Below, in pieces: positions 2,180 to 11,160 of a stretch of 64,000 bases of DNA (positions are counted from its first letter, which is position 1; the number at the start of each line of letters is the position of its first letter). The notes under the pieces are model-generated. The model ran no database searches. It was not told the DNA's origin and worked only from the letters and a program-made list of their open reading frames with translations. This DNA is from Pseudomonas sp. S09G 359 (GTDB taxonomy: Bacteria; Pseudomonadota; Gammaproteobacteria; Pseudomonadales; Pseudomonadaceae). The position numbers and the translations under genes were made by a program. Location of the stretch: positions 4,865,501 to 4,929,500 of the forward strand of contig NZ_CP025263.1 in assembly GCF_002843605.1 (NCBI RefSeq), read 5' to 3'.

Positions 2180-2480
2180 TGATTTGCGTTTGATCTTGAT
2201 CTTGATCTTGATCTCAGACGCCCCGTCAAACACGCTGGCCGCACGCAGGCTTGAATCCGTGGGTAACCCGGCAGGACGCCGGGTTAGCCGCGATGGGCCA
2301 AGGATGGCCCATGGCGGCGGCCCACGGATTCAAGCCGGAGTGCGGGCACACCGAGCCCAGGCGAGGTGCCGAGTGTTGGGGCGAGGACCTTTTGGTTACT
2401 TTTGGGTCCTTCCAAAAGTGACCCGCTGTAAGAGCGGAACCATAGGCCGCCGTTACCTAAATAACGGATATGTACACCAA
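2180..2480 (+). repeat. Long structured intergenic repeat, copy A
   Basis: This is one of three copies in the window (others at 10488-10745 and 10871-11160). It opens with tandem CTTGAT units. A nested cruciform follows: outer stem 2248-2263 with 2321-2336 (GGCTTGAATCCGTGGG and its exact complement) enclosing an AACCCGGC/GCCGGGTT hairpin and a GGGCCA/TGGCCC hairpin. Downstream come a GGTTACTTTTGG/CCAAAAGTGACC hairpin and a CCGCT/AGCGG hairpin. No convincing reading frame is conserved. It fills most of the gap between 2062 and 2582. Confidence 0.9.
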
Positions 2481-2489
2481 CATACCGCT

Positions 2490-2514
2490 ATCGGGGGCAA
2501 GCCCCCTCCCACAT
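2490..2514 (-). repeat. Single REP palindrome
   Basis: ATCGGGGGCAAGCCCCC followed by TCCCACAT is the core of the common P. fluorescens-group REP sequence that recurs as inverted pairs at 19728, 34343, 40505 and 44533. Only one arm is present here. Confidence 0.85.
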
Positions 2515-2582
2515 TCGAACCGGTTTACAGCAGAGAAAACTCAGTCGTCTGAGAGGCAATTAAGGGTTCAGCACCACCGTTC

Positions 2583-3371
2583 TCAAGGCACTGGCATCAC
2601 ATCAATACGGTAGGGCTCAAAAATCTTCAGCATCTCACCACTGTCACGCAAGCGCGTGAGCAGCGCAGAAAACGCCTCGCCAGTGATCGGCGCCTTCGGC
2701 CGCAGCAGCGCGTAATGGTGATAAACCTGGTCGATACGCTCCGAAACCAGAAACTGCCCGGCCATGTCCGCATTACGCACCATGAAATCACTCAAGTACG
2801 AACGGGTCACCAGCGCGATATCCGCACGCCCGCGCACCACCATCAGCAGGTTGCTGTCATGGGAGTAGGTCAACGTGGCGTTGAAATGCTCGGCCATGTA
2901 CTTGGGGTCGGGGTTGAAGTTGGCAAAGGCATAGTGATAACCACTGAACACCGCCAGGCGTTTGCCCGCGAGGTCAGTGAAATAGTCCTGCCCGCGACCG
3001 GGCTGACGCTGGGCGACGAAAATTTCCGCGTCTTCCAGGCCCATGTCGACACTGGTGTGGGGAATCTTGCGCCAACCCCAGTCGGGGTTCTCGAAGATGG
3101 CCATATCGACGCGGCCCTGTTCGAAATCACGGAACCGCCGCGGAATCGAGGTGGGCACCAGCACAAACTGGTAGTCGGTTTGCACGGCGTTCAGGGCCTC
3201 TACCAGCTGCGGCAGCAAACCGGTGTCGGCGCCCTGCTCAGGGCGCACGGTGTAGGGCGGGAAGTGTGCCGCGCCGATCCGCACCAATTGTGCAGCCGAA
3301 GCCGGCATCCACCACGCGGTGCCCAGTGCCCATAAAGTAAGTCCTGCAGCCAGCCGCCAAGGCGAATACAT
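2583..3371 (-). CDS. Periplasmic substrate-binding protein, SBP_bac_3 family
   Basis: From the ATG at 3371 the protein has 262 residues, with a signal peptide (MYSPWRLAAGLTLWALGTAW, cleavage likely after PASA). The mature part has the bilobed solute-binding pattern of amino-acid transporters: FPPYTVRPEQGADTGLLPQL, FEQGRVDMAIFENP, LAGKRLAVFSGYHY and LMVVRGRADIALV. A GTG four codons upstream (3383) is possible; neither start has a clear ribosome site. No permease or ATPase gene adjoins it, so it is an orphan, either serving a distant transporter or acting as a sensor-type binding protein. The ligand is unknown. Confidence 0.75.
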   Translation of the reverse strand: MYSPWRLAAGLTLWALGTAWWMPASAAQLVRIGAAHFPPYTVRPEQGADTGLLPQLVEALNAVQTDYQFVLVPTSIPRRFRDFEQGRVDMAIFENPDWGWRKIPHTSVDMGLEDAEIFVAQRQPGRGQDYFTDLAGKRLAVFSGYHYAFANFNPDPKYMAEHFNATLTYSHDSNLLMVVRGRADIALVTRSYLSDFMVRNADMAGQFLVSERIDQVYHHYALLRPKAPITGEAFSALLTRLRDSGEMLKIFEPYRIDVMPVP

Positions 3372-3464
3372 CAAGGCACACACCGTTCAACACATCGATG
3401 GCGATAAGCTAGGCGTTTTTGTCTGGCGAGACAACTTTCCACCCGCAAATTAATAGCTTGCGCC

Positions 3465-4088
3465 TCAGTCGGGTTTCAGAACCATCAACAGGGCTTCTTC
3501 GGCCAATTGCTCGAGCGTGAGGCTGCCCTCGGCACGGAACCAGGTGGTGGTCCAGGACAGGGCGCCGGTAAGGAAGCGCCGCGCGATAAACACATCGCCC
3601 TTGATATAGCCGGCGGCCTTGGCCTCGCCCAGCACCTGCAACCAGATCGCCTCATACACATCGCGCAGGGCCAGCACCTGGGCCTGGGCCTCGGCCGACA
3701 GCGAGCGCCATTCGTACACCAGCACGGCCATGGCCTCGCCGGTACCGCCCATGATCGACTGCAACTCGCAGCGAATCAGCGCCAGTACCCGCTCGCGCAC
3801 GTTCGTCGCCTCGGCGAGCGCAGCGCGCATCATCGCGGTGTTGTAGTGGATGGTTTCCTCCATCACCGCCCGCAGGATCTCATCCTTGCTCTTGAAGTGA
3901 TGGAAGATGCTGCCGGACTGGATGCCCACGGCGCTGGCCAGGTCGCGCACGGTGGTGCGTTCAAAGCCTTTGTTGCGAAACAGGTGAGCCGCCGTTTGCA
4001 GCAACTTGCCCCGGGCGCTGTCGGGGTCGGTCAATTGGCCGGCGTCGACCATGGTGCGCATCACCTGCAGGGCTTGGTGCTCATCCAT
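3465..4088 (-). CDS. atuR: TetR-family repressor AtuR
   Basis: This 207-aa regulator has an N-terminal helix-turn-helix (GFERTTVRDLASAVGIQSGS followed by IFHHFKSKDEIL) at about residues 40-75 and an all-helical ligand domain after it. It is divergent from atuA and separated from it by two CAAGCGCTTG palindromes. In P. aeruginosa, AtuR represses the atu genes by binding two inverted repeats in this same interval and is relieved by terpenoid intermediates. The ATG at 4088 has a GGAG 8 bases upstream. A longer open frame runs on antisense to atuA and is not real. Confidence 0.88.
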   Translation of the reverse strand: MDEHQALQVMRTMVDAGQLTDPDSARGKLLQTAAHLFRNKGFERTTVRDLASAVGIQSGSIFHHFKSKDEILRAVMEETIHYNTAMMRAALAEATNVRERVLALIRCELQSIMGGTGEAMAVLVYEWRSLSAEAQAQVLALRDVYEAIWLQVLGEAKAAGYIKGDVFIARRFLTGALSWTTTWFRAEGSLTLEQLAEEALLMVLKPD

Positions 4089-4146
4089 GCTGCTCTCCTC
4101 TACTTCTACAATCGTCTTGGCCGGCAATTTAGGCCGTGGCAGCCAC

Positions 4147-4205
4147 CCAAGCAAGCGCTTGGGTAAAACTTGTTTCGGCAGTTTACAAACCAAGCGCTTG
4201 CTTGG
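4147..4205. promoter_or_regulatory. Paired AtuR operators
   Basis: CCAAGCAAGCGCTTGG (4147-4162) and its exact reverse complement CCAAGCGCTTGCTTGG (4190-4205) lie 43 bp apart start to start. Each contains the 10-bp palindrome CAAGCGCTTG. The layout agrees with the two inverted repeats bound by AtuR in P. aeruginosa. The right copy lies 37 bp before the atuA start, so bound repressor would block atuA transcription. Confidence 0.85.
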
Positions 4206-4241
4206 TAGTCTCGGAGCCAGCCATTCGAGGAAGGATTTCTC

Positions 4242-6020
4242 ATGAGCAAGACGGTTCGTATCGGCTGCGCCAGCGCCTTCTGGGGCGACACCTGCACCGC
4301 CGCCGCCCAGTTGGTGCACGGTGGCGAGCTGGATTACCTGGTGTTCGACTACCTGGCGGAGGTCACGATGTCGATCCTCGCGGGCGCACGGATGAAAGAC
4401 CCCCAGGCCGGCTACGCCACCGACTTCGTCGACGTGCTCACGCCGCTGCTGGCCGATATCCAGCGCCAGGGCCTGCGCGTAATCAGCAACGCCGGCGGCA
4501 TCCACCCGCTGGCCTGCGCCGCCGCCCTGCAAGCGGCCTGTGACAAGGCCCAACTGCGGTTGAAAATCGCCGTGCTGCTGGGCGACGACCTGCAACCCCA
4601 ACTCAAGCACATGCACGGCATCACCGATATGTTCAACGGCGCGCCACTGCCGCCGGTGTGCGTGTCGGCCAACGCCTACCTCGGCGCTCCGGGCATCGTG
4701 CAGGCGCTGAAAATGGGCGCGGACATCGTGATCACTGGCCGTGTGGTCGACAGCGCGGTGGTCAGCGCCGCGCTGGTGCATGAATTCGACTGGTCCTGGC
4801 AGGACTACAACCGCCTGGCCCAGGCCGCGCTGGCCGGGCATATCATCGAATGCGGTGCACAGTGCACCGGCGGCAACTTCACCGATTGGCGCGACGTGCC
4901 CGACTACGAGCACATCGGTTTTCCCATCGTTGAAGTCAGCAACGATGGCCAGTTCACCGTAAGCAAAGTCGCCGGCACGGGCGGGCTGATCAGCGAGCTC
5001 AGCGTGGCCGAGCAGTTGCTGTATGAAATCGGCGACCCGCGTGCGTACCTGCTGCCCGATGTCATCTGCGATTTCAGCCAGGTGACCCTGCAGCAGCAAG
5101 GCAAAAACTGCGTGCGCCTGCACGGTGCCAAGGGTGCACCGCCGACCGGCCAGTACAAGGTCAGCGCCACTTACCCCGACGGGTTCCGCTGCACCGCCAG
5201 TTGCCTGATCGCCGGGATCGACGCAGTGGCCAAGGCCGAACGCGTCAGCCAGGCAATCATCAGCAAGACCGCGGAACTGTTCAGCCAGCGCGGCTGGGCG
5301 CCCTACTCCGAGGTGAACATCGAACTGCTCGGCAGCGAAGCTACCTACGGCGCCCACGCCCGACGCCAGGATTGCCGCGAAGTGGTGGTGAAGCTGGCGG
5401 TGCGACACCCGAACAAGCAGGCACTGGTGTTGTTTGCCCGCGAGATCGCCCAGGCGGCCACCGGCATGGCGCCGGGGCTGACCGGCATCGTCGGCGGGCG
5501 GCCGACGGTGTATCCGTTGATCCGCCTGTTTTCGTTCCTGATCGACAAAACGGCCTGCACGCCCGTGATCGACTTCCAGGGCAAGCAACATCCCTGCACG
5601 CAACCCATCAGCGACGCGCCCACCCTGCCCGCCGCTGCGGTTGACGCCCCCAAACCCCAAGGCCGCGCCGATGCCAGCGTGCCGCTGGTGAAACTCGCCG
5701 TGGCGCGCTCCGGCGACAAGGGCAACCACAGCAATATCGGGGTGATCGCCCGCCAGCCCGAGTACCTGGCGTGGATTGCCGAAGCGCTGACCCCGGAGGT
5801 GATCGTCGACTGGATGGGCCACGTGCTCGACCCCGTACACGGCCGCGTCGAGCGCTGGTACTTGCCCGGCAGCCACAGCCTCAATTTCCTGCTGGAAAAC
5901 GCCCTGGGCGGCGGCGGTATCGCCAGCCTGCGCATCGACCCGCAAGGCAAGGCCTTCGCCCAGCAGTTGCTGGAAATCCCTATCGCCGTGCCGCAACACA
6001 TCGCCGACTCACTTACTTAA
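4242..6020 (+). CDS. atuA: Acyclic terpene utilisation protein AtuA
   Basis: This 592-aa protein begins [18 protein letters not shown], with GAGGAAGG as ribosome site. The first ~450 residues match the AtuA family (formerly DUF1446): [39 protein letters not shown] and [15 protein letters not shown]-terminal part ([20 protein letters not shown]) follows. AtuA is essential for citronellol and geraniol catabolism in P. aeruginosa, but its reaction is unsettled; it has been discussed in connection with hydration and acetate release from the hydroxylated geranyl-CoA product. It heads the operon behind the AtuR operators. Confidence 0.92.
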
Positions 6021-6032
6021 AGGACCGTTGCC

Positions 6033-6905
6033 GTGGCCTTCGACTCGATCTTCAAAGCCAAGCTGTTCCAGGGGCAAACCGTGATTGTCACCGGCGGTGG
6101 CAGCGGCATTGGCCGTTGCACCGCCCATGAACTGGCAGCCCTGGGCGCGCGGGTGATTCTGGTGGGGCGCAAACCGGAAAAACTGCAAAAGGTCGCCGCA
6201 GAAATCGCCGAAGACGGCGGCAGCGCCCATTGGCTGGCCTGTGACATTCGCGATGAAGAGGCGGTGAAGGCGCTGGTTACGCAGCTTATTGATGAACACG
6301 GACCCATTCATGGCCTGGTCAATAACGCCGGCGGCCAGTACCCGTCGCCGCTCGCCTCGATCAATCAAAAAGGCTTTGAAACGGTACTGCGCACCAACCT
6401 GGTCGGCGGTTTCCTGATGGCGCGGGAAGTGTTCAACCAATCCATGAGCAAGCACGGCGGCGCCATCGTCAATATGCTCGCCGACATGTGGGGCGGCATG
6501 CCCGGTATGGGTCACTCCGGCGCGGCGCGCGCGGGCATGGACAACTTCACTAAAACCGCCGCCTTCGAATGGGGTTACGCCGGGGTGCGGGTGAATGCCG
6601 TGGCGCCAGGGTGGATCGCGTCCAGCGGCATGGACACCTACGAAGGCGCATTCAAGGCGGTGATCCCGACGCTGCGCGAGCATGTGCCGCTCAAGCGCAT
6701 CGGCACCGAATCGGAAGTCAGCGCGGCCATTGTGTTCCTGCTCAGCCCCGCTGCCGCGTTCGTCAGCGGCAGCACCTTGCGCATCGATGGCGCCGCCAGC
6801 CTGGGCAGCCGCGCCTGGCCGCTGCACAAGGCGCAGTCGCCGAGTGAACCCTTCAATGGCTTCCACCGCGCCTACCTGCCCGACGTCCTCAAGGCGGAGC
6901 AATAA
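6033..6905 (+). CDS. atuB: AtuB-type short-chain dehydrogenase, enoyl-CoA reductase-like
   Basis: This 290-aa SDR has the cofactor motif TGGGSGIG (residues 20-27) and NNAG (97-100). The usual YxxxK active-site pair is replaced: the equivalent place reads HSGAARAGM, with Ser162 and Arg166. The same string occurs in peroxisomal trans-2-enoyl-CoA reductase (PECR) from recall, so an acyl-CoA-handling reductase is more likely than an alcohol dehydrogenase. The start is GTG with AAAGGA upstream. It lies 12 bp after atuA and 3 bp before atuC, so it is cotranscribed. The precise step in citronellyl/geranyl-CoA breakdown is inferred from position only. Confidence 0.85.
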   Translation: MAFDSIFKAKLFQGQTVIVTGGGSGIGRCTAHELAALGARVILVGRKPEKLQKVAAEIAEDGGSAHWLACDIRDEEAVKALVTQLIDEHGPIHGLVNNAGGQYPSPLASINQKGFETVLRTNLVGGFLMAREVFNQSMSKHGGAIVNMLADMWGGMPGMGHSGAARAGMDNFTKTAAFEWGYAGVRVNAVAPGWIASSGMDTYEGAFKAVIPTLREHVPLKRIGTESEVSAAIVFLLSPAAAFVSGSTLRIDGAASLGSRAWPLHKAQSPSEPFNGFHRAYLPDVLKAEQ

Positions 6906-6908
6906 ACC

Positions 6909-8525
6909 ATGCCGGTGATTGAAAGCCTGATCGACGCCCACAGCGCGCAATTCGCGCAGAACCGCGCAGCCATGCTGGCCGGCATCCAGCAACTGCGCCA
7001 ACTGGAACAGGCGCTGCTCAACAAGGCCGAGGAAGCCAAGCCCAAGTTCGACAAACGCGGCCAGTTGCTGCCGCGCGAACGCCTCAACCTGCTGCTGGAC
7101 CCCGGCGCGCCGTTTCTGGAACTCGCCAGCCTGGCGGGCTACAAGCTGCACGATGACAAGGACGGCAGCGCCGCCGGCGGCGGCTTGATCGCCGGCATCG
7201 GCTACGTCAGCGGCGTGCGCATGCTGGTGGTGGCCAATAACAGCGCGATCAAGGGCGGCACGATTTCCCCCACCGGGCTGAAAAAATCCCTGCGCCTGCA
7301 ACAGATCGCCATGGACAACAAACTGCCGGTGGTGACCCTGGCCGAAAGCGGCGGCGCCAACCTCAACTATGCCGCGGAGATTTTCGTCGAAGGCGCGCGC
7401 AGTTTTGCCAACCAGGCGCGCATGTCGGCCATGGGTTTGCCGCAGATCACCGTGGTGCATGGCTCGGCCACGGCGGGTGGCGCGTACCAGCCGGGGCTGT
7501 CGGATTACGTGGTAGTGGTGCGCGGCAAGGCCAAGCTGTTCCTGGCCGGGCCGCCGCTGCTGAAGGCCGCCACCGGCGAAGTGGCCACCGATGAGGAGTT
7601 GGGTGGCGCCGAGATGCACGCGCAAACCGCCGGCACCGCCGAATACCTGGCGGAAAACGATGCCGACGGCGTGCGTATCGTGCGTGAGATTGTCGGCCTG
7701 TTGCCTTGGGACGACCGCCTGCCGCCAGCGCCAAAACGCGCCTACGCCGAGCCGCTGTACCCCATCGACGAGCTGCTGGGGCTGATCCCCGATGACCCGA
7801 AAAAGCCCTACGACGTGCGCGAAATCCTCGCGCGCCTGGCCGACGCTTCGCAGTTCCTGGAATTCAAGGGCGAGTTCGACCCCCACACCGTCTGCGGCCA
7901 CCTGCACATCCAGGGCCGCGCCGTCGGCGTGATCGGCAACAACGGCCCGATCACGCCCAAGGGCGCGAGCAAGGCCGCGCAGTTTATCCAGCTGTGCGAC
8001 CAGAGCCGCACGCCGCTGCTGTTTCTGCACAACACCACCGGCTTCATGGTGGGCACCGAGGCGGAGCAGCAAGGGGTGATCAAGCACGGCGCGAAGATGA
8101 TCCAGGCCGTGGCCAATGCACGGGTGCCTAAACTCACGGTGGTGGTCGGCGGTTCCTACGGTGCCGGCAATTATGCGATGTGCGGGCGTGGGCTGGACCC
8201 GCGTTTTATCTTCGCCTGGCCCAACAGCCGCACGGCGGTGATGGGCGGCGCGCAGGCGGGCAAGGTGCTGCGCATCGTCACCGAGGCCAAGCAATTGAAG
8301 GACGGCCTGGTGCCCGACCCCAAGGTGTTGGACATGCTGGAGCAGGTCACCGCGCAGAAACTCGACAGCCAATCCACCGCCCTCTATGGCAGCGCAAATC
8401 TGTGGGACGACGGGCTGATTGATCCACGCGACACCCGCACGCTGTTGGGTTTTTTGCTTGATATCTGCCATGAGGCCGAAGTGCGGCCGTTACAGCCCAA
8501 TAGTTTCGGTGTGGCGCGTTTCTAA
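6909..8525 (+). CDS. atuC: Geranyl-CoA carboxylase beta (carboxyltransferase) subunit
   Basis: This 538-aa acyl-CoA carboxyltransferase has two crotonase-like halves: N-half FDKRGQLLPRERLNLLLDPG, GSATAGGAYQPGLSDYVVVV and GPPLLKAATGE; C-half HNTTGFMVGTEAEQQGVIKH, VVVGGSYGAGNYAMCGR and AVMGGAQAGKVL. It transfers the carboxyl group from biotin to the acyl-CoA. The sequence type is shared with methylcrotonyl-CoA carboxylase (LiuB). Assignment to the geranyl-CoA enzyme rests on its place between atuB and atuD. Its partner alpha subunit is atuF, located beyond two repeats. GGAG in the atuB tail is the ribosome site. Confidence 0.9.
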   Translation: MPVIESLIDAHSAQFAQNRAAMLAGIQQLRQLEQALLNKAEEAKPKFDKRGQLLPRERLNLLLDPGAPFLELASLAGYKLHDDKDGSAAGGGLIAGIGYVSGVRMLVVANNSAIKGGTISPTGLKKSLRLQQIAMDNKLPVVTLAESGGANLNYAAEIFVEGARSFANQARMSAMGLPQITVVHGSATAGGAYQPGLSDYVVVVRGKAKLFLAGPPLLKAATGEVATDEELGGAEMHAQTAGTAEYLAENDADGVRIVREIVGLLPWDDRLPPAPKRAYAEPLYPIDELLGLIPDDPKKPYDVREILARLADASQFLEFKGEFDPHTVCGHLHIQGRAVGVIGNNGPITPKGASKAAQFIQLCDQSRTPLLFLHNTTGFMVGTEAEQQGVIKHGAKMIQAVANARVPKLTVVVGGSYGAGNYAMCGRGLDPRFIFAWPNSRTAVMGGAQAGKVLRIVTEAKQLKDGLVPDPKVLDMLEQVTAQKLDSQSTALYGSANLWDDGLIDPRDTRTLLGFLLDICHEAEVRPLQPNSFGVARF

Positions 8526-8541
8526 CAGGAGAATAAGCACC

Positions 8542-9699
8542 ATGATCTTCACCCAGGAACACCAGGAACTGCGTCGCAGCGTCCGCGCCTTCGTCGACCG
8601 CGAGATCAACCCCCATGTGGACGAATGGGAAAAAGCCGGGCGCTTTCCCATCCACGACATCTTCCGCAAGGCCGGTGACCTGGGCCTGCTGGGCATTTCC
8701 AAGCCGGAAAAATTCGGCGGCATGGGCCTGGACTACAGCTATTCGATCGTCGCCGCCGAAGAGTTCGGCACCATCCACTGCGGCGGCATCCCCATGTCCA
8801 TCGGCGTGCAGACCGACATGTGCACCCCCGCCCTCGCCCGCTTCGGCTCCGATGAACTGCGCGACGAATTCCTGCGCCCGGCCATCAGCGGCGAGCAGGT
8901 CGGCTGTATCGGCGTTTCGGAAACCGGTGCCGGTTCCGATGTGGCCGGGCTCAAGACCCACGCGCGCAAGGACGGCGACGACTACGTGATCAACGGCAGC
9001 AAAATGTGGATCACCAACTCGCCCAGCGCCGACTTTATCTGCCTGCTGGCCAACACCTCCGACGACAAGCCGCACATCAACAAGTCGCTGATCATGCTGC
9101 CGATGAACACGCCAGGCATCAGCGTCAGCCCGCCCCTGGAAAAACTCGGCATGCACAGCTCCGAGACCGCCCAGGTGTTCTTTGACGGCGTGCGCATCCC
9201 TCAGCGCAACCGCATCGGCCACGAAGGCGCGGGCTTCATGATGCAGATGCTGCAGTTCCAGGAAGAACGCCTGTTTGGCGCGGCCAATATGATCAAGGGC
9301 CTGGAGCAGTGCATCGACAGCACCATCGCCTACTGCAAGGAGCGCCAGACCTTCGGCAAGGCGCTGATCGACAACCAGGTCATCCACTTTCGCCTGGCCG
9401 AACTCGCCACCGAAATCGAATGCCTGCGCGCGCTGGTGTACCAGGCCACCGAGCAGTACATCAAAGGCCAGGACGTGACCCGCCTGGCCTCCATGGCCAA
9501 ACTCAAGGCCGGGCGCCTGGGCCGCGAAGTCAGCGACAGTTGCCTGCAATATTGGGGCGGCATGGGCTTTATGTGGGACAACCCGGTGGCCCGCGCCTAT
9601 CGGGACGTGCGCCTGGTGTCGATTGGCGGCGGCGCCGACGAGATCATGCTGGGCATCATCTGCAAACTGATGGGTACTTTGCCGGGGAAAAAGCCATGA
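8542..9699 (+). CDS. atuD: Citronellyl-CoA dehydrogenase (acyl-CoA dehydrogenase family)
   Basis: This 385-aa flavoenzyme starts at the ATG at 8542 behind AGGAGAA. Family marks include CIGVSETGAGSDVAGLKT, KMWITNS, ERQTFGKALIDNQ and LQYWGGMGFMWDNPVARAYR, followed by DVRLVSIGGGADEIM, whose final Glu is at the catalytic-base position of many members. In P. aeruginosa, AtuD oxidises citronellyl-CoA to cis-geranyl-CoA. An upstream in-frame extension into atuC has no ribosome site and is not family-like. Its stop overlaps the atuE start (ATGA). Confidence 0.9.
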   Translation: MIFTQEHQELRRSVRAFVDREINPHVDEWEKAGRFPIHDIFRKAGDLGLLGISKPEKFGGMGLDYSYSIVAAEEFGTIHCGGIPMSIGVQTDMCTPALARFGSDELRDEFLRPAISGEQVGCIGVSETGAGSDVAGLKTHARKDGDDYVINGSKMWITNSPSADFICLLANTSDDKPHINKSLIMLPMNTPGISVSPPLEKLGMHSSETAQVFFDGVRIPQRNRIGHEGAGFMMQMLQFQEERLFGAANMIKGLEQCIDSTIAYCKERQTFGKALIDNQVIHFRLAELATEIECLRALVYQATEQYIKGQDVTRLASMAKLKAGRLGREVSDSCLQYWGGMGFMWDNPVARAYRDVRLVSIGGGADEIMLGIICKLMGTLPGKKP

Positions 9700-10457
9700 A
9701 CACCCTGCTGCTCGAACCGCATAACGGCGTGCTGCACATCACCCTCAACCGGCCTGAATGCCGCAATGCGATGAGCCTGGAGATGGTCAACGAACTGCGC
9801 GCGGTGTTGGCGAACTTGGACAACCAGGTACGCGCCGTGGTGATCAGCGGTGCGGGTGGGCACTTTTGTGCGGGCGCCGATGTGAAGGACCTGGTCAGCG
9901 CGGGCACCCGGTTGCAGGCGTTGAACCGCGCGTTTGGCACCTTGCTGCAAGAAGTCGAAGCGGTGCCGCAGGTGGTGATCGTGGTGCTGCAAGGCGCGGT
10001 GCTGGGCGGCGGTTTTGGCCTGGCCTGCGTGAGCGATATTGCGATTGCTGATCACCAGGCGCAGTTCGGTTTGCCGGAAACCAGCCTGGGGCTGTTGCCG
10101 GCGCAGATTGCGCCGTTTGTGGTGAAGCGGATCGGGCTGACCCAGGCGCGGCGGCTGGCGCTGACGGCGGCGCGATTTGATGGGGTCGAGGCGCTGCGGT
10201 TGGGGGTGGTGCATTTTGTCGAGAGCGATCCGCAGGCGTTGGCGGAGCGTTTGGATGAGGTGTTGGGGCAGGTGTTGCGGTGCGCGCCGGGGGCGAATGG
10301 GCGCACCAAGGCGTTGTTGTTGGCGAGTGTGGATGAGCCGCTGGAGGCTGTGTTGGATCTTGGGGCGCAGTGGTTTGCTGAGGCGGTGACGGGGGCCGAG
10401 GGGATTGAAGGGACTCAGGCATTTGTGCAGAAGCGCAAGCCGGGGTGGGCTCGATGA
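9696..10457 (+). CDS. atuE: Isohexenylglutaconyl-CoA hydratase (crotonase family)
   Basis: This 253-aa crotonase-fold protein has the oxyanion-hole segments HFCAGADVKDL and LQGAVLGGGFGLA and the helix FGLPETSLGLLPAQIAP with an expected catalytic Glu. AtuE of P. aeruginosa hydrates isohexenylglutaconyl-CoA, the product of geranyl-CoA carboxylase. It overlaps atuD by 4 bp, so translation is coupled. Codon use turns G-rich towards its 3' end. After it the operon is interrupted by 714 bp holding two long repeats before atuF. Confidence 0.88.
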   Translation: MNTLLLEPHNGVLHITLNRPECRNAMSLEMVNELRAVLANLDNQVRAVVISGAGGHFCAGADVKDLVSAGTRLQALNRAFGTLLQEVEAVPQVVIVVLQGAVLGGGFGLACVSDIAIADHQAQFGLPETSLGLLPAQIAPFVVKRIGLTQARRLALTAARFDGVEALRLGVVHFVESDPQALAERLDEVLGQVLRCAPGANGRTKALLLASVDEPLEAVLDLGAQWFAEAVTGAEGIEGTQAFVQKRKPGWAR

Positions 10458-10487
10458 ATGGGTGAATATCGGGTGTTTGGGTGATGG

Positions 10488-10745
10488 CTGAAATGGGTTC
10501 CGCTCTTACAGCGGGTCACTTTTGGAAAAGAGCCCCAAAAGTAACCAAAAGGGCTCTTGCCCCAACACTCGGCACCTCGCCTCCGGCTCGGTGTGCCCTC
10601 ACTCCGGCTTTGGACCGTGGGCCGCCGCGATGGGCCATCCTTGGCCCAGCGCGGCTAACCCGGCGTCCTGCCGGGTTACCCACGCTCCAAAGCCTGCGTT
10701 CGGCCAGCGTGTTTAACGGGGCGCCTAAGATCAAGATCACGATCA
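10488..10745 (-). repeat. Long structured intergenic repeat, copy B (inverted)
   Basis: This is the same element as copies A and C but in opposite orientation. Its outer stem, 10606-10621 with 10679-10694, reads GGCTTTGGACCGTGGG against CCCACGCTCCAAAGCC: 15 of 16 pairs form although several bases on both sides differ from copies A and C. The inner AACCCGGC/GCCGGGTT and GGGCCA/TGGCCC hairpins are kept. It begins about 30 bp after atuE stops. Confidence 0.9.
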
Positions 10746-10870
10746 ACAGCGCAGATCAAAAGACCGCCGACTTCGTCAGCGCAAAGGATGTAAGAGCCAG
10801 ATCAAAAACAAAGCAGAGCAAAAACGCTTTTGATCTACACCACTCAGGTCGGCTTTCAGGCCGCCGTGCT

Positions 10871-11160
10871 CTGCTTTTGATTTTGATTTTGATCTGAGAC
10901 GCCCCGTCAATCACGCTGGCCGAACGCAGGCTTGAATCCGTGGGTAACCCGGCAGGACGCCGGGTTAGCCGCACTGGGCCAAGGATGGCCCATTGCGGCG
11001 GCCCACGGATTCAAGCCGGAGTGAGGGCACACCGAGCCTAGGCGAGGTGCCGAGTGATGGGGCACAGACCTTTTGGTTACTTTTGGGGCGTTTGCCAAAA
11101 GTGACCCGCTGTAAGAGCGGAACCATAACCAGCCGTTACCGCAAAAACGGATATGTACAC
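10871..11160 (+). repeat. Long structured intergenic repeat, copy C
   Basis: This copy opens with tandem TTTTGAT units. Its outer stem (10929-10944 with 11002-11017) is identical to copy A. It ends in CGGATATGTACAC at 11160, only 11 bp before the atuF start, so its 3' hairpins would lie in the atuF leader. With copy B it forms an inverted pair around a ~125-bp spacer in which GATCAAAA-type words recur and no gene was recognised. Confidence 0.9.

Follow-up and report, generated by a model that had tools for sequence, protein, structure and literature searches.

A 64,000-nucleotide (nt) stretch of Pseudomonas sp. S09G 359 (contig NZ_CP025263.1, positions 4,865,501 to 4,929,500; hereafter the window) contains three copies, A, B, and C, of a folded repeat of ~290 bp, and B and C are the two outward-facing arms of a single composite element. 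The arms match the Rfam family TwoAYGGAY and are dispersed through the genome, mostly as divergent pairs. Their stems covary in a way that points to selection on the RNA of one strand, and two hairpin loops keep a GGA while the stems around them are rewritten. We think it likely that the element is a dispersed carrier, resembling a miniature inverted-repeat transposable element (MITE), of twin TwoAYGGAY-type RNAs that would be bound by CsrA/RsmA proteins; the binding, the expression of the arms, and a mover are the parts of this account that we infer.

The initial annotation had described three copies of a folded module with paired changes in its outer stem, and both alignment and a check of the stems bear this out. 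A and C are 92% identical across 221 nt and then 91% identical across the following 66 nt, and B is the reverse complement of A/C, at 89-90% across ~165 nt and 76-81% elsewhere. The outer stem of B is altered on both sides (GGCTTTGGACCGTGGG at 10606-10621 with CCCACGCTCCAAAGCC at 10679-10694) yet still forms 15 of 16 Watson-Crick pairs, the single non-pair being C.C, i.e., G.G when read on the RNA strand of B. The 3' hairpin GGTTACTTTTGG / CCAAAAGTGACC was also correctly said to be kept, as it is present in all three. What changes is the layout: B spans ~10466-10746, B and C are not independent of each other but form the arms of one 695-bp unit, and near-full-length arms number 30 genome-wide, not three. 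Every one of these 30 arms matches arm C at an expect value (E) of 5.7e-61 or better, which excludes chance as the source of the repeat.

A BLAST search of the host genome (6.77 Mb, one contig) returned 37 matches, the 30 near-full-length arms among them. Twenty-four of these arms form 12 divergent pairs, each with its left arm on the minus strand and its right arm on the plus strand, 121-243 bp between the arms, and a total span of 665-809 bp, which makes the unit a discrete composite element. B and C make up one of the 12 pairs, and A belongs to the remaining six arms, which lack a near-full-length partner and are probably remnants. Eleven of the 12 composites share an asymmetric core, lying in both orientations (7 and 4), and the twelfth (809 bp) has a longer, different one. 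Arrays of composites were also seen in other genomes, with arms alternating between minus and plus and like arms ~675-690 bases apart at L065 and L083 (genome G196), and with like arms ~1,310-1,345 bases apart at L085 (genome G116). The outer stem exists in four very different versions in the host genome, and in each the two sides are fully or almost fully complementary. Within a pair, such as that at 10466-11160 and related composites, the arms often differ in version, and across related genomes versions have changed places between the arms of one site, which suggests conversion between arms.

The pairing of the fold was examined at two depths. An RNAalifold consensus of 23 distinct 145-nt modules from the host genome holds 48 pairs, 18 of them with changes on both sides. 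For a more diverged sample, two covariance-model runs gave 59 and 134 hits, which came to 125 once 44 antisense and 24 short hits had been removed; added to the 23 modules, these yielded 57 representatives below 90% identity and, after removal of five that lacked the core, 52 copies (alignment A5). In these, 94.9% of the 1867 cells in 36 pairs are paired, dropping to 32.8-45.1% in a control that slid partners by 1-3 columns, and 33 of the 36 pairs show changes on both sides. None of 500 shuffles matched any of five pairing measures. A tree-based null left 12 column pairs significant at E < 0.05, spread over the outer stem, the side hairpin, and hairpins 1 and 2; ten belong to the RNAalifold structure, and two lengthen hairpin 1. 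This null was run once, from a single seed and with 60 null alignments, using our own R-scape-like script, which redistributes substitutions on a FastTree tree; recombination between copies violates the tree that it assumes. Covariation across many copies, the outer stem included, is thus present, and the selection on a folded RNA that had been proposed from three copies is borne out by the null, by the level of pairing, and by the wobble pairs described next.

A double-stranded DNA fold or an antisense RNA would tolerate A.C on the sense strand as well as G.U. The antisense RNAalifold structure, built of other pairs, holds both (82 G.U and 58 A.C cells) and is a weaker control than hoped; pairs were therefore chosen blind to strand, solely on Watson-Crick covariation. 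The 27 unique-partner pairs obtained in this way contain 1235 Watson-Crick cells, 70 G.U, 0 A.C, and 89 other mismatches, with G.U present in 39 of the 52 copies and A.C in none. When conflicting partners are still included, the 41 candidate pairs give 96 G.U and 40 A.C. The pairs of the 94.9% consensus structure hold 72 G.U and 0 A.C, plus 65 A-G cells, and the sense fold is more stable than the antisense fold in all 52 copies. The 70-to-0 bias therefore argues for selection on an RNA of one strand and not on a DNA cruciform. Most likely the selected form is the RNA of the GGA strand, with a strand-specific single-stranded DNA fold as the remaining DNA form.

Two other explanations for the paired changes meet this same bias. 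A DNA cruciform bound by protein, one of the possibilities raised initially, would suit the near-perfect inverted repeats, but wobble pairs in the sense of one strand only do not fit it; we dropped this reading and consider it barely credible. The changes could instead be mutational, produced by template switching in quasi-palindromes or by gene conversion between arms or copies, and the exchange of outer-stem versions as blocks, including between arms at one site, is in keeping with that. Such repair, however, has no strand sense, the loops are fixed, and 12 pairs survive the tree-based null even if its tree is violated by recombination, so a mutational origin seems very improbable to us.

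The loops keep their GGA even where the stems differ: it is retained in loop 1 of 51 and in loop 2 of 51 of the 52 copies. The published Rsm site is 5'-A/U CANGGANG U/A-3' (PMC4353343), and CANGGANG is also given as the Rsm motif in PMC6849547; in its strict form this motif occurs in loop 1 of 35 copies and loop 2 of 51, the remaining loops 1 being mostly CAGGACG. At least two CA(N)GGANG motifs are found in all 30 host copies and in 112 of the 125 longer hits from other genomes (6 have one, 7 have none), and none occurs in the antisense of A, B, or C. Each window arm has 6 or 7 GGA motifs, two of them within hairpin loops. In vitro selection (SELEX, systematic evolution of ligands by exponential enrichment) gave the consensus RUACARGGAUGU, with GGA mostly within six-base hairpin loops (PMC7652899). 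Three CsrA-family (PF02599) genes are present in the host genome. Judged from sequence, the loops most likely serve to bind CsrA/RsmA. The sponge RNAs CsrB, RsmY, and RsmZ likewise carry several GGA motifs, as the arms do with two of theirs in hairpin loops, but the arms differ in being a multi-copy repeat with another fold, for which sigma-70-like scans found no promoter.

The initial annotation could name no known family for the repeat, but a scan with Rfam 15 finds one: A, B, and C all match RF01731, TwoAYGGAY, above its gathering score (43 bits). The best score in the host genome is 64.8 bits, and RF01731 is the only Rfam family to reach gathering in the window. Alignment to RF01731 matched the plan in order, with an outer stem, a GGA-loop hairpin, an AG linker, a second GGA-loop hairpin, and a closing strand. 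Both AYGGAY-type hairpins present a GGA in the loop; in the window, the loops CAGGACG and CAAGGATG deviate from strict AYGGAY, and the commonest loop in the 52 diverged copies, CATGGATG, contains the namesake AUGGAU. In other Pseudomonas genomes, 17 of 20 scanned loci score above gathering. By score and architecture, the arms are members of TwoAYGGAY. A match to a described family thus exists, although the behavior of that family is itself unproven.

TwoAYGGAY came from a computational screen, which placed it in human gut sequences, gamma-Proteobacteria, and Clostridiales, judged it a probable RNA, and entered an 'n' under cis-regulatory (PMC2864571); in Rfam, its assigned type is cis-regulatory. 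CsrA binding by TwoAYGGAY was proposed earlier from motif matches (PMC4333381). The excerpts of these two reports do not mention dispersed divergent-pair elements with tens of arms. Among the open-licence papers listed, we found no description of a link between Pseudomonas repeats and Rsm/CsrA, and of those that name TwoAYGGAY none is, judged by title, about Pseudomonas. Two intergenic repeats of P. fluorescens resemble the arm or its core in size, the one property compared: R200 (320 bp) occurs 47 times in SBW25 and 8 times in Pf-5, and R178 (101 bp) occurs 18 times in SBW25, 28 times in Pf0-1, and 9 times in Pf-5 (Silby et al. 2009, PMC2718517).

Dispersal extends well beyond the host. With our covariance model, 150 of 199 Pseudomonas genomes match at E ≤ 0.001 (no more than 15 candidates being scored in each genome), and by an eye count 111 of the 150 reach a best E of 1e-10 or better; the weaker matches partly reflect a sister core described below. 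Copy number varies widely, from 3 to 62 matches per genome in 20 genomes chosen among those with matches. The composite B-C occupies a 714-bp gap between enoyl-CoA hydratase-like and biotin carboxylase-like genes, and this gap was compared in 30 loci, the best matches from 398 genomes searched. By BLAST, the element is in the gap in 8 of the 30, the host included (L237, L238, L239, L240, L243, L248, L249, and L253; the contig of L239 ends before the second flanking gene). It is missing from 21, two of which show remnants by eye (L258 and L266), and L244 was left unassigned. Most of the relatives that lack the element have palindromic repeats of another kind there, of the type GCAGGCAAGCCAGCTCCCACA (L241-L266), as though repeats tended to land in this gap.

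The ends of the arms recur as well. Allowing up to one mismatch, the end motif occurs at 31 places in the host genome, 26 of which are arm ends, and a reversed control pattern gives 4. With terminal inverted repeats, many copies, and no need of an open reading frame, the element shows these features of a MITE, and it resembles MITEs and the hairpin-forming doublets of repetitive extragenic palindromic (REP) sequences known as REPINs in being a short, non-coding inverted repeat, dispersed and mostly intergenic. It differs in that its arms encode long, folded RNAs and are selected at the level of RNA, and neither a cognate transposase nor a target duplication was found. Plasmids and phages were considered as carriers and rejected: 1 of 72,556 plasmid records (at 3 places) and 1 of 50,697 phage records matched, and they are therefore not the usual vehicles.

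Outside Pseudomonas, the RF01731 model matches 30 of 194 genomes of the order at E ≤ 0.001, with 17 of them exceeding the cut-off and 17 of 96 genera represented, and it has no match in 14 control genomes. Close pairs of minus then plus arms recur in other families of the order (e.g., G530, G480, and G500), which probably makes the divergent pair an old layout. GGA motifs stand on both strands in this layout at L300, L302, and L311, and the arms of L300 have, by eye, quite different outer stems, each self-complementary.

The scaffold also occurs with another core. L098 (7444-7602 and 7838-7997), L138, and L148 keep the outer stem and the side hairpin around three hairpins that lack GGA hairpin loops, with the divergent-pair layout kept in L098 and L148 and no Rfam match at gathering in any of the three. 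In a DNA search, this sister core had matches in 24 of 59 Pseudomonas genomes, and by our reading 15 of these reach 1e-25 or better; the matches in the host genome (best 9.6e-7) probably reflect the common scaffold. Among 41 sister-core copies, 38 lack a CA(N)GGANG motif and 3 carry a single one, and 19 are followed by a AAAAGTGA-type sequence, as in the 3' hairpin of the arms. Two or more copies lie in minus-then-plus layout in 10 of 33 loci. Further loci of this core are L321-L350; the sister family as a whole is multi-copy and often stands in divergent pairs. In the RNAalifold structure of 13 representatives there are 37 G.U and 7 A.C cells. Both cores are present in G046 and probably in G058, although each TwoAYGGAY-type copy retrieved from the latter has a single GGA loop. 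It thus seems that more than one kind of core can sit in this scaffold.

As we picture it, the ~700-bp element, two outward-facing ~290-bp arms around a core, would encode in each arm a TwoAYGGAY-type RNA in which a long outer stem closes a junction of two hairpins that present GGA in CsrA/RsmA-type loops. Because the arms face outward, read-through transcription from either side would reach one arm in sense, and the two loops of that arm could hold a CsrA/RsmA/RsmE dimer. The arm RNA may then either titrate CsrA/RsmA/RsmE in parallel with the established Rsm small RNAs or have a local effect on the transcript of which it is part.

Several observations weigh against this account. Loop 1 of the window arms, CAGGACG, is one base short of strict CANGGANG, and three of the 20 scanned loci (L071, L075, and L078) fall below RF01731 gathering. 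SELEX winners mostly had stems of four pairs or fewer, and very stable structure was thought disadvantageous (PMC7652899); the arm stems are far longer than those. Simple scans of the composite and of the surroundings of A found no sigma-70-like promoter. On the side of movement, the initial suggestion of MITE-like dispersal is matched by the pattern (12 inverted pairs, variable copy number, and presence or absence in one gap), whereas no transposase, target-site duplication, or exact empty site emerged: the 30-locus gap comparison gave no clean or exact empty site, no target-site duplication was seen by eye at the 12 pairs, and no partner element or mover with the same ends was found, an exact end motif away from the arms (G000:C1:2814748-2814762) having been left unexamined. 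The sister core, in turn, lacks GGA loops, so spread of the scaffold needs no CsrA binding. Finally, in a transcript of the whole composite at equilibrium, arm-arm pairing (-544 kcal/mol) is favored over arms and core folded apart (~-310 kcal/mol), and the loops would therefore be hidden.

This last result is what would be expected if the composite were a transcription barrier or a processing site, with read-through yielding a long hairpin that is cut by a double-strand ribonuclease, or with the stems and a C-rich flank stopping transcription. Over the first 60 nt beyond the 30 arms on the downstream side, the RNA strand has 40% C and 16% G, compared with 33% C and 28% G at 300-900 nt, a C-rich, G-poor composition as in Rho loading sites or in an insertion preference. 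By the crude calls of open reading frames on which the gene contexts here rest, 5 of 18 element sites lie between convergent frames, but one composite stands between two co-directional catabolic-type genes, and the fixed GGA loops would go unexplained. We regard a barrier or processing site as improbable.

The element may also be nothing but a selfish DNA repeat whose hairpins some transposase needs as single-stranded DNA, the CsrA-like loops being incidental. REP hairpins are needed by their transposases in this form. Dispersed inverted pairs with recurring outer ends, variable copy number, and a sister core that shares the layout but has no GGA loops would all follow. However, a GGA held in nearly every copy of both loops despite rewritten stems would not, and G.U without any A.C in strand-blind pairs fits RNA better, even if it leaves some room for a strand-specific single-stranded DNA fold. 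We consider a purely selfish repeat unlikely, and return to the carrier of CsrA/RsmA-binding RNA.

What is new here is that a TwoAYGGAY-type RNA is carried in Pseudomonadales by a dispersed, twin-armed element under strong strand-specific RNA selection, with the layout recurring in other families, and that a similar scaffold carries a second core. More tentatively, the element could be a mobile RNA chassis with exchangeable cores, either CsrA/RsmA-binding or three-hairpin, that is spreading through Pseudomonadales and whose tens of copies per genome might tune or hijack the Gac/Rsm switch of the host, while the outward arms would guarantee one sense copy in either orientation of landing. An Rfam family without a proven role becomes testable, being abundant in culturable Pseudomonas and under strong selection at the RNA level, and the host genome alone offers ~60 candidate RsmA/RsmE loops (30 arms with two each). 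Should the arms bind RsmA in vivo, a repeat element would be part of a global regulatory switch and copy-number differences between strains would matter; should they not, the wobble bias and the fixed loops would call for another RNA partner.

Positions in the window of the arms, the composite, and their parts
Feature	Position	Strand	Remarks
Arm A	2191-2477	+	Solo arm; no near-full-length partner arm adjoining
Composite element	10466-11160	no strand	Two outward-facing arms around core; 695 bp
Arm B	10466-10746	- (RNA strand -)	Left arm of composite
Core between B and C	10747-10871	no strand	Common to 10 of 11 other composites
Arm C	10872-11160	+ (RNA strand +)	Right arm of composite
TwoAYGGAY (RF01731) match in A	2232-2352	+	46.9 bits
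TwoAYGGAY (RF01731) match in B	10599-10701	-	45.6 bits
TwoAYGGAY (RF01731) match in C	10922-11024	+	50.4 bits
A outer stem, 16 bp	2248-2336 (2248-2263 with 2321-2336)	+	Encloses both hairpins; GGCTTGAATCCGTGGG / CCCACGGATTCAAGCC
B outer stem	10606-10694 (10679-10694 with 10606-10621)	-	15 of 16 pairs
C outer stem	10929-11017 (10929-10944 with 11002-11017)	+	GGCTTGAATCCGTGGG / CCCACGGATTCAAGCC
A hairpin 1	2264-2286	+	Loop CAGGACG
A hairpin 2	2287-2318	+	Loop CAAGGATG
B hairpin 1	10656-10678	-	Loop CAGGACG on - strand
B hairpin 2	10624-10655	-	Loop CAAGGATG on - strand
C hairpin 1	10945-10967	+	Loop CAGGACG
C hairpin 2	10968-10999	+	Loop CAAGGATG
A 3' hairpin	2394-2423	+	GGTTACTTTTGG / CCAAAAGTGACC
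B 3' hairpin	10514-10546	-	GGTTACTTTTGG / CCAAAAGTGACC
C 3' hairpin	11075-11106	+	GGTTACTTTTGG / CCAAAAGTGACC

Two neighborhoods of the element in other sequences were noted in passing. The sole matching plasmid record, P. antarctica NZ_CP015601.1 (58031-58184, L317), has its match between genes annotated as type III secretion parts, and in a related genome the gene for the small RNA PhrS adjoins element arms (L075, 1788-2008, minus strand).

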